DNA of 64,000 bases, from NCBI GenBank assembly GCA_007693595.1, contig REDI01000002.1, positions 62,001-126,000 on the forward strand, in the 5' to 3' direction. A model generated the notes under the pieces. The model was not told the origin of the DNA, did no database searches, and saw nothing but the letters and a program-made list of their open reading frames with translations. This document shows positions 47,663-54,525 of this stretch, in pieces. The position numbers and the translations under genes are program-made. Each line of letters opens with the position of its first letter. The first letter of the stretch is position 1. Source of the DNA: Deltaproteobacteria bacterium (GTDB lineage Bacteria; Myxococcota_A; UBA796; GCA-2862545).

Positions 47663-50047
47663 TCAGGGCTCGAGCGGCGCCGCGTGTTGCTCGGCCCACC
47701 GCAGCATCTCCCACAGGGCGTGGCCGACGCTCTCGCGGGCCCGATAGCCATGGTCCTCGCTCGGAAGGACGACCCAGCGCACCGTGCCGCCGTGACCCTT
47801 GATGGCCTCGTACAGCCGCTCGCTCTGGATGGGGTAGGTCCCTGAGTTGCTGTCGTCGGCGCCGTGCAGGAGCAGGATGGGCTCGTCGATCTTGTGAGCG
47901 TGGGTGAAGGGGGAGAGCTCGAGGTAGGTCTGCGGTGCCTGCCAGAAGGTTCGCTCTTCGCCCTGAAAGCCGAAGGGCGTGAGGGTCCTGTTGTACGCGC
48001 CACTTCGAGCGATCCCGGCTCGGAACAGGCTGGAGTGCGCGAGCAGGTGAGCCGTCATAAAGGCGCCGTAGCTGTGGCCGCCGACAACGGTGCGATCGGG
48101 ATCGGTCACCCCACGGTCCACGAAGGTCTGGACCGCAGCCTCGGCCCCCGCGACGAGCTGCTCGATGAAGGTGTCGTTGGGCTCGTCATCGCCCTCTCCC
48201 ACGATCGGGATCGAGGGATCGTCCACCACGGCGTACCCTTGAAGGAGGAAGAAGAGGTGGGAGGACCCCCCAGGGCGCGAGAAGCCCCGATCGGTCCGAG
48301 TGACCTGGCCCGCGTCATCGCGGCTCTTGAACTCGCTGGGGTAGGCCCAGAAGATGGTCGGGAGGGGGCCGTCTCGCTTGGGGCGATAGCCGGGGGGCAG
48401 GTAGAGGGTGGCCGACAGTGGCAGGCCATCTTCACGGGTGTAGCGGACCACTTCTTTCTTGACATCAGAAAAGGCCGGGGCCCAGTCCGAGAAGGCGGTG
48501 AGGGCCTGGAGGGGTTGGCGACGATTCAGGGACCGAAGCTGGTAGTTCGGAGGCTGGGTGGCGCTCTGGCGCGAGGTGACGAAGCGCGCAGGATCGTCGA
48601 GGATCCGCACCACTTGTTCGACCCAGGGGTCCCGCGCCTGCCAGACCCGATCCGTCTGCTGCGTGGCCAGCGTATAGCGGTCATAGAAAGGGTACATGCC
48701 TTCGGGAGACCAGCCGGGGCCCGTCAGCAAGAGGGATCCTTCTTCCACGCGCAGAACCGACCAGCCATGAGGACCCCGGCGCACCGCCGGTCGACCGGGA
48801 TCGCCGTAGCGGTCTTGCGAGGAGCGGTCCCAGTGCAAGATGGGCTCGGCCTCGGGCTTGCTCGTGTCGAGCTGCCAAGTGCGCACGCGCCGGGTCCGCC
48901 ACCACGACTCGCTCACCAGGGCGAGGCCGTCGGTTCCCCACCGCACGCCCGCGTAGCGCAGCTCGCTCTGCCACAAGCGGGTAGGCTCGCCGTCGAAAGG
49001 AGCAGGCAGCGTGTAGAGCGCGTCGCGGAGCTCCGCCTCGGCCCCTGCGTCGCCCCCGTCGAGGGCCTCGACAAAGTAGAGCTCCGCCCCTTGGTCGGCC
49101 CGCCAGTAGACCGTGCGCCGACCCGTGCGGACCGAGCCGAAGGGCACGGGGACGTCGTCGGCGAGGGGCAGGTCCGAGACGAGCACGGGCTCGCCGCCCT
49201 GGATCGGCATGGCCTCGATGGTCCGGGCGAAGCGCGAGGCCGGGACGGACCGGCTCCATGGACCCCGCAGCCGCGTCACGAGCAGCCAGGAGGCGTCGGG
49301 GGAGGGCGAGACATCGTCGTAGAGATCCGCGTCGAGCAGAGGCGTGACCCGCCCTTGAAGATCGACCTTGACGATCTCGGAGGTGAGCAGATGCTCGAAG
49401 ACCCGCTCGTCGTGGGCGTCGGTCAGGAGGTTCTGGTAGGTGCGGGCCGGCGCCACCCGGCCGAGGCTCTCTTCGATCTTGGGCCCGACGGGGACGGGAT
49501 CGCGCTCAGGCGGCGCCCCATGACCCTCGGGTCGCACCTTGCACACGAGCCCTGAGCCATCGGTGAGCCAGGAGCATGGGCTGCCGTAGACCCCGTTCAA
49601 GCGCGGCCCGATCAGCCGGCGAGGCTCGGGGGCGTCGCGGGAGGTGATCCAGAGCTCGAGGCCTTCCTCGGCGATGTTCGTGAAGGCGACGTGGGCATCG
49701 TCGTAGCTCCACGAGACGTTGGTGACGCGAGCACCGGGCGGGAGCGGCACCTGGGTGCGGGCGACGCGATCGTGCCGCCCGAGGGGACGGAAGGTCATCG
49801 CGGTGTAGCCCAACGCGCCGGCACGGCCGAAAGTCCGCGGGTTCACCTGAAGCCCCGCCACCCGGAGGCGCGGCTCCGAGAGCTCGGCGATGGAGGGGAG
49901 CTCGGGCCGCGCCAGCTCGAGCATAGTGGCGTTGTCGCGCGAGAAGCTGATCGCTGGAGGGCGCGGTGCGTCGAGGGCCTCGACGATGGCGGGCGGGGGA
50001 TCCTGGTAGACCTCAGCGGCCAAGGCCAGGGCGATGAAGAGCAGCAT
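47663..50047 (-). CDS. Secreted S9 serine peptidase, glutamyl-endopeptidase-like
   Basis: A 794-residue prolyl-oligopeptidase-family enzyme. Signal peptide MLLFIALALAAE; a beta-propeller then covers residues about 60-520. The alpha/beta-hydrolase domain has Ser659 in GGHSYGAFM, Asp at 731-732 in GADDSN and His766 in SEDHGY. The N-terminal pattern (YQDPPPAIVEALDAPRPP, ELSEPRLRVAGLQVNPRT) is that of the chloroplast glutamyl endopeptidase (CGEP) group. It should cleave oligopeptides in the periplasm or medium. ATG preceded by GGGAGGT. Convergent with the CotH-like gene, seven bases apart. Confidence 0.9.
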   Translation of the reverse strand: MLLFIALALAAEVYQDPPPAIVEALDAPRPPAISFSRDNATMLELARPELPSIAELSEPRLRVAGLQVNPRTFGRAGALGYTAMTFRPLGRHDRVARTQVPLPPGARVTNVSWSYDDAHVAFTNIAEEGLELWITSRDAPEPRRLIGPRLNGVYGSPCSWLTDGSGLVCKVRPEGHGAPPERDPVPVGPKIEESLGRVAPARTYQNLLTDAHDERVFEHLLTSEIVKVDLQGRVTPLLDADLYDDVSPSPDASWLLVTRLRGPWSRSVPASRFARTIEAMPIQGGEPVLVSDLPLADDVPVPFGSVRTGRRTVYWRADQGAELYFVEALDGGDAGAEAELRDALYTLPAPFDGEPTRLWQSELRYAGVRWGTDGLALVSESWWRTRRVRTWQLDTSKPEAEPILHWDRSSQDRYGDPGRPAVRRGPHGWSVLRVEEGSLLLTGPGWSPEGMYPFYDRYTLATQQTDRVWQARDPWVEQVVRILDDPARFVTSRQSATQPPNYQLRSLNRRQPLQALTAFSDWAPAFSDVKKEVVRYTREDGLPLSATLYLPPGYRPKRDGPLPTIFWAYPSEFKSRDDAGQVTRTDRGFSRPGGSSHLFFLLQGYAVVDDPSIPIVGEGDDEPNDTFIEQLVAGAEAAVQTFVDRGVTDPDRTVVGGHSYGAFMTAHLLAHSSLFRAGIARSGAYNRTLTPFGFQGEERTFWQAPQTYLELSPFTHAHKIDEPILLLHGADDSNSGTYPIQSERLYEAIKGHGGTVRWVVLPSEDHGYRARESVGHALWEMLRWAEQHAAPLEP

Positions 50048-50176: not shown

Positions 50177-51706
50177 ATGGCTGACCTCCACCTGCCAAGC
50201 CTCATCGCCCTCGGGCTGCTCTACCTCGCCGTCTTCGGCGTAGGCCTCTGGGCCTCTCGACCCCGCCGAGACAGCGAGGGCGTCGAAGAGCTCCTCCTTG
50301 CCGGCCGATCGCTCCCCCTGTGGGTCGGCCTGCTCACGATGACCGCGACCTGGGTCGGTGGCGGCTACATCAGCGGTACGGCAGAGCAAACCTATCAGTC
50401 CGGACTACTCTGGGGGGCTCAGGCCGGGATCGGCTACGCCCTGGCCTTGGTGATCGGGGGGCTCGTCTTCGCGCGGGTGATGCGCCGTCACGGCTTCTCG
50501 ACCCTGGTCGATCCCCTCGAGGCGCGCTTTGGACGCCACGCCGCCGTCGTGCTGATGATCCCCGCCGTGCTCGCGGAGGTCTTCTGGAGCGGGGCCATCC
50601 TGGTCGCGCTGGGCACGAGCTTCGGGGCCGTGATCGGCATCGATCTCACCACCGCGATCCTCTCGTCCGCTTCGGTCGCCGTCGCCTATACCGTCTTCGG
50701 AGGTCTTCGCGCCGTCGCCTATACCGATGTGCTGCAGCTCGGCTTGATCCTCGGGGGCCTGGGCCTCGCTGTCCCGTTCGTCATCACCACGGCCGGCGGC
50801 TTCACCCAGCTCGAGCTCAGCGCTGGCGAGATCACCGCCTTGGGCGAGGGCCTCACCTACGGCGACTGGATGTTGGTCTTCATTCTGGGTGGGATCCCCT
50901 GGAACGTCTACTTCCAGCGTATCCTCGCCACCCCCGATCCCCCGACGGCCGCCAAGACCTCGATCTGGGCGGGCCTGCTCTGTGGCCTGATGGCGATCCC
51001 CCCTCTGCTCCTGGGCCTCGCCGCCTCCTCGATCGACTGGGCCGCTCTCGACACCGGAGGGGTCGATGTCGTGGCGGGGCTCGAGGACAGCCCGGCGATG
51101 GTGCTGCCGTACCTGCTGCGCTACGCCGTGCCGACCTGGGTCGGCGTCCTGGGGCTCGGTGCCGTGGGGGCCGCGGTCATGTCCTCGGTCGATAGCTCGA
51201 TCCTCTCCGGAGCCTCGCTCCTTGCCTGGAACGGCTACCGCCGCCTGCTTCGCCCCCGCGCGACCGCCCGGCAGATCACCCGCCTGGTCCGGGTCCTGGT
51301 GGTGCTCCTCGGCGGCATCGCCACCTGGCTGGCGCTCTCGGTCGGGAGCGTGGCCGCCCTGTGGTACCTCTGCGGCGATCTGGTCTACACCATCCTCTTT
51401 CCCCAGCTCACCCTCGCGCTCTTCGACAAGCGGGCCAACCGGACCGGCGCGCTGGCCGGGCTGTTCATCTCCGTCCTGCTCCGCCTGGGCGCTGGCGAGC
51501 CGACCCTGGGCCTGCCCGCTTTCCTGCCCTACCCCGAGCTCGACGGCCACTTCCCCTTCCGCACCGTCGCGATGCTCGCGGGCCTCGGCACCGCGCTGGC
51601 GGTCTCACGGCTGACCACGAGCCTCGATCCGCCAAGACCCCTGCGCAACGTCGCGGCGCCGCCCGCCGAAGAGCCCCCGACGGACGCGACCGCTCCGGCG
51701 CGATAA
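50177..51706 (+). CDS. Sodium:solute symporter, high-affinity choline transporter (CHT1/SLC5A7)-like
   Basis: A 509-residue inner-membrane symporter of about 13 TM segments. Beyond the general SSS fold it follows the animal choline transporter SLC5A7 closely: WVGGGYISGTAEQTYQ, VFGGLRAVAYTDVLQL, PWNVYFQRILA, GAVGAAVMSSVDSSILSGAS and LWYLCGDLVYTILFPQL (recalled comparison, not an alignment). Predicted Na+-coupled choline uptake. The next gene, 31 bases on, encodes phosphatidylcholine synthase, which consumes choline. GGTAC at 50160-50164 may be the -10 element; no SD stands out in the C-run before the ATG. Confidence 0.85.
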   Translation: MADLHLPSLIALGLLYLAVFGVGLWASRPRRDSEGVEELLLAGRSLPLWVGLLTMTATWVGGGYISGTAEQTYQSGLLWGAQAGIGYALALVIGGLVFARVMRRHGFSTLVDPLEARFGRHAAVVLMIPAVLAEVFWSGAILVALGTSFGAVIGIDLTTAILSSASVAVAYTVFGGLRAVAYTDVLQLGLILGGLGLAVPFVITTAGGFTQLELSAGEITALGEGLTYGDWMLVFILGGIPWNVYFQRILATPDPPTAAKTSIWAGLLCGLMAIPPLLLGLAASSIDWAALDTGGVDVVAGLEDSPAMVLPYLLRYAVPTWVGVLGLGAVGAAVMSSVDSSILSGASLLAWNGYRRLLRPRATARQITRLVRVLVVLLGGIATWLALSVGSVAALWYLCGDLVYTILFPQLTLALFDKRANRTGALAGLFISVLLRLGAGEPTLGLPAFLPYPELDGHFPFRTVAMLAGLGTALAVSRLTTSLDPPRPLRNVAAPPAEEPPTDATAPAR

Positions 51707-51737
51707 GGCCCCTGCTCGTCGTGACCTCGGAGCCTCT

Positions 51738-52472
51738 GTGACCGCTGCTTCCCCGCTGCATCGCCTCGCCGCCTGGTCGGTCCACGCCTACACCTCCCTG
51801 GGCCTGCCCCTCGCGGTGGTCGCAGCCCTCGCGCTGTTCAACGACGACGCTCAGAGCTTCTTCCTCGCCCTGTGCGCCGCGGTCTTCGTGGACGCGACCG
51901 ACGGCTTCCTCGCGCGAGCCGTCAAGGTGCGAGAGGTCCTTCCCGACTTCGACGGCCGACGTCTCGACGACATCGTCGACTTCATCACCTTCGCGCTGCT
52001 GCCCACCCTCGCCGTGATCCAGTTCGGGCTCTTTCCCGAGGGCTTCGCCTTCGCGGCCGTGATCCCCCTGCTCGCCAGCGGCTACGGCTTCTGCCAGGAC
52101 CAGGCCAAGACCGACGAGTCCTTCGTCGGGTTTCCTAGCTACTGGAACATCGTGATCATGTACCTCTACCTCCTCGAGCTCGGCCCTTGGGTGAACCTCG
52201 GGGTCCTGATCACCCTGTCGGTCCTGGTCTTCGTCCCCATCCACTACGTCTACCCCACCCGAACCCGAATGCTCCGCCCAGTCACCGTCATCGGCGGCTT
52301 CAGCTGGGCGGCCGTCATGGTGCTCCTCATGCTCCAGATCGAGGCGAGCTGGGCCAAGCCCGTGGCGCTGGTTTCCCTGGTCTACCCCGTCTACTACTTC
52401 GCCCTAAGCGCGGTAAATCACGCCCGAATCACCCGGCAGCTCCGCGCCACACAGCGCGACGCGGCCGCCTAG
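51738..52472 (+). CDS. pcs: Phosphatidylcholine synthase
   Basis: A 244-residue membrane CDP-alcohol phosphatidyltransferase joining choline to CDP-diacylglycerol to give phosphatidylcholine and CMP. The active-site motif fits the Pcs-specific form DG-x2-AR-x12-G-x3-D-x3-D exactly: DGFLAR, twelve residues, then GRRLDDIVD. About seven TM helices. Length is typical for Pcs (235-260). GTG start with GGAG upstream. It is directly downstream of the choline transporter gene, an apparent two-gene operon. Confidence 0.9.
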   Translation: MTAASPLHRLAAWSVHAYTSLGLPLAVVAALALFNDDAQSFFLALCAAVFVDATDGFLARAVKVREVLPDFDGRRLDDIVDFITFALLPTLAVIQFGLFPEGFAFAAVIPLLASGYGFCQDQAKTDESFVGFPSYWNIVIMYLYLLELGPWVNLGVLITLSVLVFVPIHYVYPTRTRMLRPVTVIGGFSWAAVMVLLMLQIEASWAKPVALVSLVYPVYYFALSAVNHARITRQLRATQRDAAA

Positions 52473-52493: not shown

Positions 52494-53738
52494 TCACACC
52501 ACCTCACCCATGAGCGCTTCGAGGCAGGGAGCCACGACCTCGCGCAGGGCACGGCGGGCGACCTCGGTCTCGAGGGCCGTGGGCAGCACCCCCCACGAAG
52601 CGCAGGAGGCAGAGGGGCCCTCGTCGGGCTGAGCCTCACGCGCCGCGTAGGAGGCATCAGCCTGGGCGAGGAGCTCCGCGCAGCCGTTGAGCAGGCTCGG
52701 ATCGCGGCGCGCGGCCCACGCGACGAAGCGCCAAGCCAGCGCCGCGTGGCCCGCCTCATCGTCCGCGACCCCACGAAGGATCAAGTCTAACCCAGGGTGG
52801 ACCGCACGGTCTCGGGCCTCGCCCGCCAAGGCGGCGGCGAGCGTCTCGTTGATGCAGCCTTCGCTGAAGGCGGCGAGCGCGGCATCGCGCAGCGTCGGAT
52901 GAGCCACCGCGCCGTGGGTGTCGAGGGGGCCGGGGGCCCGCCCCTCGCCGGCGAGGCTGGAGGCGATCGCGAAGGCATCGGCTGCATGTCGGACCTCGTC
53001 GCGAGTCGCCTCGCTCGCGGCCAGGAGCAGCTCGGAGGGGGCGCCGAACTGTAGAAGGTCGAGGGTAAAGGTTGCGAAGCTAGCGATGGAGGCGTGCTCT
53101 GTGAGCGCCGTCCGGACCCAGTGAGCCTCGAGCTCGGCCCGCAGGGGTGCGGGCAGGGCGCGCAGCGCATCGTTCAGCGAGCTGCTGAGCGGGCCCCAGG
53201 GCGCGCTCACCACCACCTCGGCGGTACGGGCTCGACCCTCGGCCACAAAGGGGCGACCCACGGCGATCAGAGGCTCAAAATGGAAGTTGTAGCAACATTC
53301 GTCGATCCGTCCGGGATCGGGGCCGCAGGTGGGGGTGACCCGAGCATAGGCGCCGATGCTCCCCTCCGAAAAGTCGAGGACCCCCTCGATCCAGGCCGGC
53401 GCCGTCTCTTGGGTGAGCACAGGACACCGCACGTCGACCGCATCCTCGCAGAGGAAGACCTCCTCGGGCCAGTCGAAGGACTCGGGGTGCAGCTCCTCAC
53501 GCCCGTCGGGGAGCGAGTAGTCACACATTCGCGCGAGGTCCGTGTCCGTGTCCGTGTCCGTGTCCGTGTCCGTGTCTGTGTCTGTGTCTGTGTCGGTGTC
53601 TGTGTCTGTGTCTGTGTCGGTATCAGACTCCGTCGACAGGACGGAATCGACCCCTTCGTCCTCACCGCAGGCCGAGAGCGCCAGGGTGGTGAGGGTCGCG
53701 AGGAGGAGGTGGCGGCGCAGGGGGGTCAGATCGACCAT
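52494..53738 (-). CDS. Lipoprotein with (TD)n linker and ferritin-like domain
   Basis: A 414-residue protein. Signal and lipobox LSAC are followed by a linker of about 14 consecutive Thr-Asp pairs, encoded by a hexanucleotide repeat. A Cys-containing middle domain follows. Residues about 195-400 form a ferritin-like four-helix bundle: TEHASIASFATF, ATRDEVRHAADA, NETLAAALAGEA and DDEAGHAALAWRF supply Glu and ExxH residues for a di-iron site. Such proteins are common in Myxococcota envelopes. ATG at 53738 has GGAG six bases upstream. Possible peroxide/iron handling or oxidase role. Confidence 0.82.
   Translation of the reverse strand: MVDLTPLRRHLLLATLTTLALSACGEDEGVDSVLSTESDTDTDTDTDTDTDTDTDTDTDTDTDTDTDLARMCDYSLPDGREELHPESFDWPEEVFLCEDAVDVRCPVLTQETAPAWIEGVLDFSEGSIGAYARVTPTCGPDPGRIDECCYNFHFEPLIAVGRPFVAEGRARTAEVVVSAPWGPLSSSLNDALRALPAPLRAELEAHWVRTALTEHASIASFATFTLDLLQFGAPSELLLAASEATRDEVRHAADAFAIASSLAGEGRAPGPLDTHGAVAHPTLRDAALAAFSEGCINETLAAALAGEARDRAVHPGLDLILRGVADDEAGHAALAWRFVAWAARRDPSLLNGCAELLAQADASYAAREAQPDEGPSASCASWGVLPTALETEVARRALREVVAPCLEALMGEVV
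53541..53620 (-). repeat. Hexanucleotide repeat encoding the Thr-Asp linker
   Basis: About 13 copies of CGTGTC/TGTGTC/GGTGTC in a row (minus strand GACACG-like), encoding alternating Asp and Thr. The first five copies are identical (CGTGTC). Six-base units keep the frame when copies are gained or lost, so the linker length can vary by slippage. Confidence 0.9.
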
Positions 53739-53874
53739 GAGCGACTCCAGGGCGGGGATGAGGGGCGCAGTATATCGCGTGCACTCCCCCCTCGTTGTGG
53801 CCCGCTGAATCGGCTGGAGCCCACCCGCTCGGAGCGGGCGGCGGCGTACAGAGCCCCCGGTTGGAGCGCCAAGC

Positions 53875-54525
53875 TCAGGCCGACTTGAGCACCTGGATGG
53901 CCGCCGCGCGGTCGGGCGCACCATAGATCCCCGAGCCGGACACGAGCACGTGAGCGCCTGCGCTGGTGAAGCGATCGGCGTTGTCGACCTTGACTCCGCC
54001 GTCGACCTCGATGAGCGTCCGCAGGCCGCGCTGGTCGATCTTTCGGCGAAGTCGCTCGATCTTGGGAAAGATCGACTCGATGAGGCTCTGGCCCCCGAAG
54101 CCCGGGTTCACGCTCATAATCAACACCAGGTCGAGCTCGTCGAGAACATACTCCAGCACCGACTCATGGGTGTGGGGGTTGAGGGCCACGCCGACCTTCG
54201 CCCCGGTCGCCTGAACCGCTTGGATCGAGCGGTGAAGGTGCACACAGGCCTCGGCGTGCACCGTGATCTGACTCGCGCCCGCGTCGCGGTAAGCCTGCAC
54301 GCTCGCGTCAGGGCGCTCGATCATCAGGTGCACATCCAAGAAGGCGTCCATGGCGTGCCGGCGCACCGCCGCGACCACCGGCGGACCGATGGTCAAGTTG
54401 GGCACGAAGTGGCCGTCCATGACGTCGACGTGGATCCAGTCCGCGCCTTTGTCGAGCACATCCGCGACGTCGCGGGCGAGGTTCCCGAAGTCCGCGGAGA
54501 GGATAGAGGGGGCGACGACAGCCAT
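53875..54525 (-). CDS. rpe: Ribulose-phosphate 3-epimerase
   Basis: A 216-residue TIM-barrel enzyme interconverting ribulose 5-phosphate and xylulose 5-phosphate. APSILSADFGNL, HVDVMDGHFVPNLTIG, DVHLMIERP, VNPGFGGQ and EVDGGVKVDNA carry the metal-binding His/Asp and catalytic Asp residues. ATG at 54525 with AGGAGT upstream; one base after the fmt stop, so co-transcribed. Confidence 0.96.
   Translation of the reverse strand: MAVVAPSILSADFGNLARDVADVLDKGADWIHVDVMDGHFVPNLTIGPPVVAAVRRHAMDAFLDVHLMIERPDASVQAYRDAGASQITVHAEACVHLHRSIQAVQATGAKVGVALNPHTHESVLEYVLDELDLVLIMSVNPGFGGQSLIESIFPKIERLRRKIDQRGLRTLIEVDGGVKVDNADRFTSAGAHVLVSGSGIYGAPDRAAAIQVLKSA

Follow-up and report, generated by a model that had tools for sequence, protein, structure and literature searches.

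Phosphatidylcholine is rare in bacteria. The locus described here lies in a window of 64,000 nucleotides (the whole stretch of DNA analyzed) from the genome of an uncultured bacterium, and it raises the question of whether uptake of external choline and its conversion to this lipid are encoded together, as a pair of adjacent genes. Based on sequence, conserved residues, a fold model, and recurrence in other genomes, we consider it highly probable that the two genes, a transporter gene of the CHT type and a phosphatidylcholine synthase gene (pcs), form a choline-to-phosphatidylcholine module. In the proposed mechanism, the Na+ gradient would drive the import of free choline by the CHT-type symporter through an aromatic cage, and the membrane enzyme Pcs would then convert choline and CDP-diacylglycerol to phosphatidylcholine and CMP. 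Here, we describe the gene pair and its two products, and then assess how often the pair recurs, what other fates choline may have, and how the pair compares with known systems.

Layout of the gene pair

The pair and its surroundings in the window are as follows:

47663-50047, strand opposite to the pair: prolyl oligopeptidase gene, upstream flank
50177-51706, + strand: predicted CHT-type sodium:choline symporter gene (509 aa, TAA stop)
51707-51737, + strand: intergenic gap of 31 bases, read directly from the sequence
51738-52472, + strand: predicted phosphatidylcholine synthase (pcs) gene (244 aa, GTG start, TAG stop)
52494-53924, - strand: open reading frame of no assigned family, downstream flank (no Pfam match)

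A first-pass annotation of this DNA had reported that the symporter gene ends 31 bases before pcs on the same strand, and both frames were located as it described. The transporter segments that it quoted (GGYISGTAE, PWNVYFQRIL, VMSSVDSSILS, and LWYLCGDLVY) are all present in the translation, and its Pcs motif, DG-x2-AR-x12-G-x3-D-x3-D, occurs in the enzyme as DGFLARAVKVREVLPDFDGRRLDDIVD. Both flanking genes are on the opposite strand, and therefore the CHT gene and pcs constitute a free-standing two-gene unit. The 31-base gap is compatible with a single transcript and, together with the shared strand, suggests that the two genes are co-transcribed. A promoter and terminator scan, which has little power here, found no terminator-like site around the pair. 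The downstream open reading frame encodes a long Thr/Asp dipeptide repeat (TDTDTD...) behind a lipoprotein-like start.

The transporter is a member of the CHT family

A sequence search of solved structures with the window transporter returned sfCHT (9rws) as the top match (E = 7e-140) and human CHT1 as the second (E = 1e-99), with vSGLT at 1e-18. The window transporter shares 52.5% identity with sfCHT over 480 aligned amino acids and 43% with human CHT1 over 475, and it matches the sodium:solute symporter family PF00474 at E = 5.7e-37 (128 bits vs. a cut-off of 22.8). sfCHT, from Salimicrobium flavidum (PDB 9RWS, 9RWT), was shown in May 2026 to be a Na+-dependent, hemicholinium-3-sensitive choline transporter, in which replacing cage tryptophans or gate residues with alanine eliminated uptake or lowered it sharply (PMC13220886).

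With sfCHT as the reference, the aromatic choline cage is complete in the window transporter: W59, Y87, W137, W242, and W396 correspond to sfCHT W99, Y126, W176, W298, and W445. The first-pass annotation had named the loss of choline-site aromatic residues beforehand as grounds for abandoning its reading; the alignment shows that none is lost. The Na+ site (A57, T58, V60, and Q187; sfCHT A97, T98, V100, and Q226) and the cytosolic gate (R44, Q247, and R248; sfCHT R84, Q303, and R304) are likewise kept. The sole mismatch among the tested pocket, Na+, and gate residues is A251, which is S307 in sfCHT, a position that the sfCHT authors report as poorly conserved among bacterial homologs (PMC13220886). 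The four cage tryptophans and the R, Q, and R of the gate are invariant in all of the CHTs examined, both pcs-associated (30/30) and betaine-associated (34/34), and PutP, PanF, and ActP have no cage residues. The window genome encodes three more SSS proteins, of which two are without any cage residue and one has a single tryptophan.

Phylogenetic analysis places all CHTs, including sfCHT and human CHT1, on one side of a branch with SH-aLRT support of 97, apart from an outgroup of E. coli PutP, PanF, and ActP that has very long branches and includes no sialic-acid transporter. Human CHT1 is nested within the bacterial CHT radiation on a long branch, so its exact place is unsure. Thus, the first-pass description of the transporter as "animal CHT1-like" was right as to the CHT family and wrong as to the closest kin, since the nearest relatives are bacterial CHTs, with the animal protein nested among them. 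Identity as PutP or as a pantothenate transporter, placements that the first-pass annotation had listed as counting against its reading, was ruled out by the profile scores, the tree, and the missing cage in PutP and PanF. Altogether, family and residues suggest that the window transporter imports choline, driven by Na+, through an aromatic cage of the CHT1/sfCHT type.

The enzyme resembles phosphatidylcholine synthases

Five NCBIfam Pcs models match the enzyme, with E-values from 4e-44 to 7e-33, compared with 5e-8 for pssA. The enzyme misses the Pcs equivalog cut-offs (151 bits vs. 440; 147.9 vs. 300); these models are lineage-specific by name (Legionella, Pseudomonas, Borrelia, Agrobacterium, and Bradyrhizobium), and therefore the missed cut-offs exclude those subgroups rather than Pcs activity. 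No Pfam model scores above threshold, and the pssA model TIGR00473 reaches 33 bits vs. a cut-off of 107. The motif spacing of the enzyme, AR-x12-G, is that of Pcs, whereas Pss has AR-x8-G. The AlphaFold model (pLDDT 95.7) has the fold of a CDP-alcohol phosphotransferase, and the best PDB folds are the phosphatidylserine synthases 7b1k and 7pow (E about 2e-5, probability 1.00). PDB sequence searches with the enzyme turned up no Pcs structure, so a phosphatidylserine synthase is the expected nearest solved fold.

These fold matches, with the lack of a passing Pfam model and the missed Pcs cut-offs, could mean that the enzyme belongs to another kind of CDP-alcohol phosphotransferase, acting for example on serine or dimethylethanolamine, and that the transporter imports a related amine. 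We regard this as very improbable, as the nearest solved fold is the expected one, the choline cage of the transporter is intact, and the Pcs proteins encoded beside CHT genes in other genomes share the same features. The exact x12 motif is present in 28 of 29 such neighbors (among the best 80 of 239 CHT loci, see below), the exception being a variant in L040, and the spacing is x12 and not x8 in 28/28 neighbors that bear the motif. All five Pcs models match 30/30 Pcs proteins, with best E-values far below that of pssA. Identity as a phosphatidylserine synthase was ruled out by the x12 spacing and by Pcs models scoring far above pssA. Motif, family, and fold model thus favor a Pcs, an enzyme that would make phosphatidylcholine from choline.

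The gene pair recurs within and beyond the window family

We searched 21 genomes of the window family. Seven encode a CHT, and in five of these (G000, G012, G020, G011, and G013) pcs is directly downstream on the same strand; in the other two (G010 and G019) it is on another contig. Another 11 genomes of the family have pcs and no CHT, and therefore Pcs does not require a CHT transporter. G001, the one other genome searched from the window genus, has neither gene. Co-occurrence of the two genes at the family level is not significant (pcs in 7/7 genomes with CHT vs. 11/14 without, P = 0.52), and the association instead rests on adjacency together with phylum and cross-phylum data. Of 377 genomes from the phylum, nine encode a CHT and 113 a Pcs, and every one of the nine is among the 113 (hypergeometric P about 1.6e-5, kinship ignored).

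A broad scan of ~85,000 species genomes yielded 239 CHT-encoding stretches, of which we retained the best 80 together with the surrounding genes; these are ranked by similarity to the window transporter, and their proportions are therefore not those of all CHTs. Within these best 80 of 239, pcs is nearby in 29 loci, at a gap of about 210 bp or less in 24 and at a distance of 2.7 kb in L058. The 29 loci come from Myxococcota, Planctomycetota, Acidobacteriota, and Bacteroidota (mainly Saprospiraceae), plus unassigned bins, and the carriers of the pair include Phaeodactylibacter xiamenensis and Flavilitoribacter nigricans. Their layouts vary: pcs is co-directional and downstream in nine, convergent in nine, divergent in ten, and upstream on the same strand in one, and orientation changes at least five times on the transporter tree.

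Some genomes of the window family carry CHT and pcs on separate contigs, as two genes of unrelated function that had come to lie together by coincidence might. That explanation is extremely unlikely: the adjacency is repeated in at least four phyla and in three relative orientations, and pcs is absent from all 23 control loci, which surround other genes for transporters or GMC oxidoreductases in the window family. Conservation of the pair, set against these controls, led us to reject coincidental adjacency. The first-pass annotation had made its reading depend on a conserved neighborhood with pcs, and the survey found one, shared by five members of the window family and seen again in no fewer than three further phyla.

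Several loci have taxonomic labels that do not follow their transporter sequences or the taxonomy used here. The CHTs of L035 (a Planctomycetota bin) and L040 (Acidobacteriota UBA2990) fall within the 11-row clade of the window CHT, and in both loci pcs comes next, downstream and co-directional, which suggests either that the pair was transferred horizontally or that the contigs were mis-binned. L046 is labelled Nealsonbacteria, yet its CHT groups with Planctomycetota. The public labels of L033, L036, L038, L039, and L109 (Rhodobacterales, Proteobacteria, or Deltaproteobacteria) look unreliable; the taxonomy used here assigns these loci to the window family.

A kinase gene adjoins pcs in some relatives

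The flanks of the pair in the window family have no other neighbor common to different genera, except for a kinase gene after pcs in some. In six genomes of the family this gene, for a Ser/Thr protein kinase, immediately follows pcs and shares its strand:

L138:3577-5547 (G012): kinase after pcs
L150:8199-10187 (G010): kinase after pcs
L146:8842-10746 (G004): kinase after pcs
L147:4358-6424 (G014): kinase after pcs
L028 (G017): kinase after pcs
L018 (G008): kinase after pcs

A C-terminal phosphonate-binding (PhnD-like) domain is fused to the kinase in all four proteins checked with Pfam. The gene order in G012 is CHT-pcs-kinase, with a 36-base gap; the window pair has no such kinase alongside. 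The kinase may act as a sensor linked to the synthesis of phosphatidylcholine.

Lipid and betaine contexts of CHT genes

Using E. coli BetA and BetB as probes, we found betA/betB near 35 of the best 80 of 239 CHT loci, including L103, the locus of sfCHT. Classified by context, these best 80 comprise 28 loci with pcs only, 34 with bet genes only, one with both, and 17 with neither. The two contexts are therefore nearly mutually exclusive (Fisher P 1e-8, kinship ignored), although this value and the hypergeometric P for the phylum overstate independence because the context label partly follows clades. The context switches at least five times on the transporter tree. The only locus with both among the best 80 of 239, L101, has pcs upstream of CHT on the same strand and a BetA-like gene with 42% identity to E. 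coli BetA.

The window genome itself, which is 98.4% complete, was surveyed for genes that bear on the fate of choline. No BCCT transporter, OpuAC-type ABC binding protein, or choline kinase was detected, and there was no BetA homolog at E<=1e-20. The genome encodes three distant GMC oxidoreductases; a search for this family is too broad alone, and the BetA query was used instead. Because this survey of BCCT, OpuAC, BetA, and choline kinase found no gene for betaine synthesis, choline kinase, or another recognized importer, phosphatidylcholine is most plausibly the main fate of imported choline in this organism. BetA homologs are encoded elsewhere in the genomes G011, G012, and G020, so choline could feed both routes there, and exclusivity is not universal.

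These data bear on whether the CHT is instead a general osmoprotectant importer that supplies choline for glycine betaine and stands beside pcs by descent only. The many bet-linked CHT loci, that of sfCHT among them, favor such a role, and osmoadaptation was proposed by the sfCHT authors (PMC13220886). We nevertheless consider it improbable for the window pair, given the near-exclusion of pcs and bet contexts among the best 80 of 239 loci, the persistence of pcs beside CHT where other neighbors change, and the betaine-related genes missing from the window genome (BetA, BCCT, and OpuAC). In our reading, the two contexts reflect a single family of transporters whose members supply choline for one fate or the other. 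It is likely, if less so than the module itself, that CHTs have repeatedly been specialised to phosphatidylcholine or to glycine betaine, and that CHT-pcs is a portable module, put together or rearranged on several occasions across four or more phyla, through which scavenged choline is built into a eukaryote-like lipid.

Comparison with known systems

Choline transport by a bacterial CHT (2026), Pcs, and the supply of Pcs by the importer ChoXWV are already known. We found no report of a CHT-pcs module, or of a split of CHTs between lipid and betaine contexts, in the open literature (few subscription journals covered), and no choline member came up when the text of a 2021 review on prokaryotic SSS transporters was searched. 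What appears to be new here is a predicted Na+-driven route feeding Pcs. The physiological role of prokaryotic CHT homologs has been called unclear, with osmoadaptation and nutrition offered as possibilities (PMC13220886). The neighborhoods described above suggest that bacterial CHTs have a second, widespread role in the synthesis of membrane lipid, and so offer a testable answer to the question stated in that work. They also predict phosphatidylcholine in Planctomycetota, Saprospiraceae, and relatives of the window organism whenever choline is present.

The window transporter and sfCHT belong to the same family, and no residue of the choline cage, the Na+ site, or the R/Q/R gate distinguishes them. 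They differ at residue 307 of sfCHT, which is Ser there and Ala in the window transporter, and in gene context: the sfCHT gene is ~0.8 kb from betB, with betA beyond (L103), whereas the window gene adjoins pcs. Human CHT1 (SLC5A7), which serves acetylcholine synthesis in neurons, has the same cage and gate residues as the window transporter. For the enzyme, the nearest solved structures are the phosphatidylserine synthases 7B1K and 7POW, presumably from Methanocaldococcus, which share the CDP-alcohol phosphotransferase fold (TM-score about 0.6-0.7 to the enzyme model) but use serine as the alcohol substrate and have only ~20% identity to the window enzyme.

A functional parallel is offered by ChoXWV and Pcs of Agrobacterium, Sinorhizobium, and Brucella, in which imported external choline is converted to phosphatidylcholine (PMC3972451, PMC8371380). 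The likeness lies in the supply of external choline to Pcs, as proposed for the window pair; the ChoXWV importer is not known to form a two-gene unit with pcs. The first-pass annotation had held that an SSS importer for lipid synthesis would be unusual; this is true insofar as the known importers feeding Pcs are of the ABC type (ChoXWV), while an SSS-type bacterial choline transporter as such has a precedent in sfCHT. The two systems differ in energy source, with an ATP-driven ABC importer in ChoXWV and a predicted Na+ symporter in the window pair.
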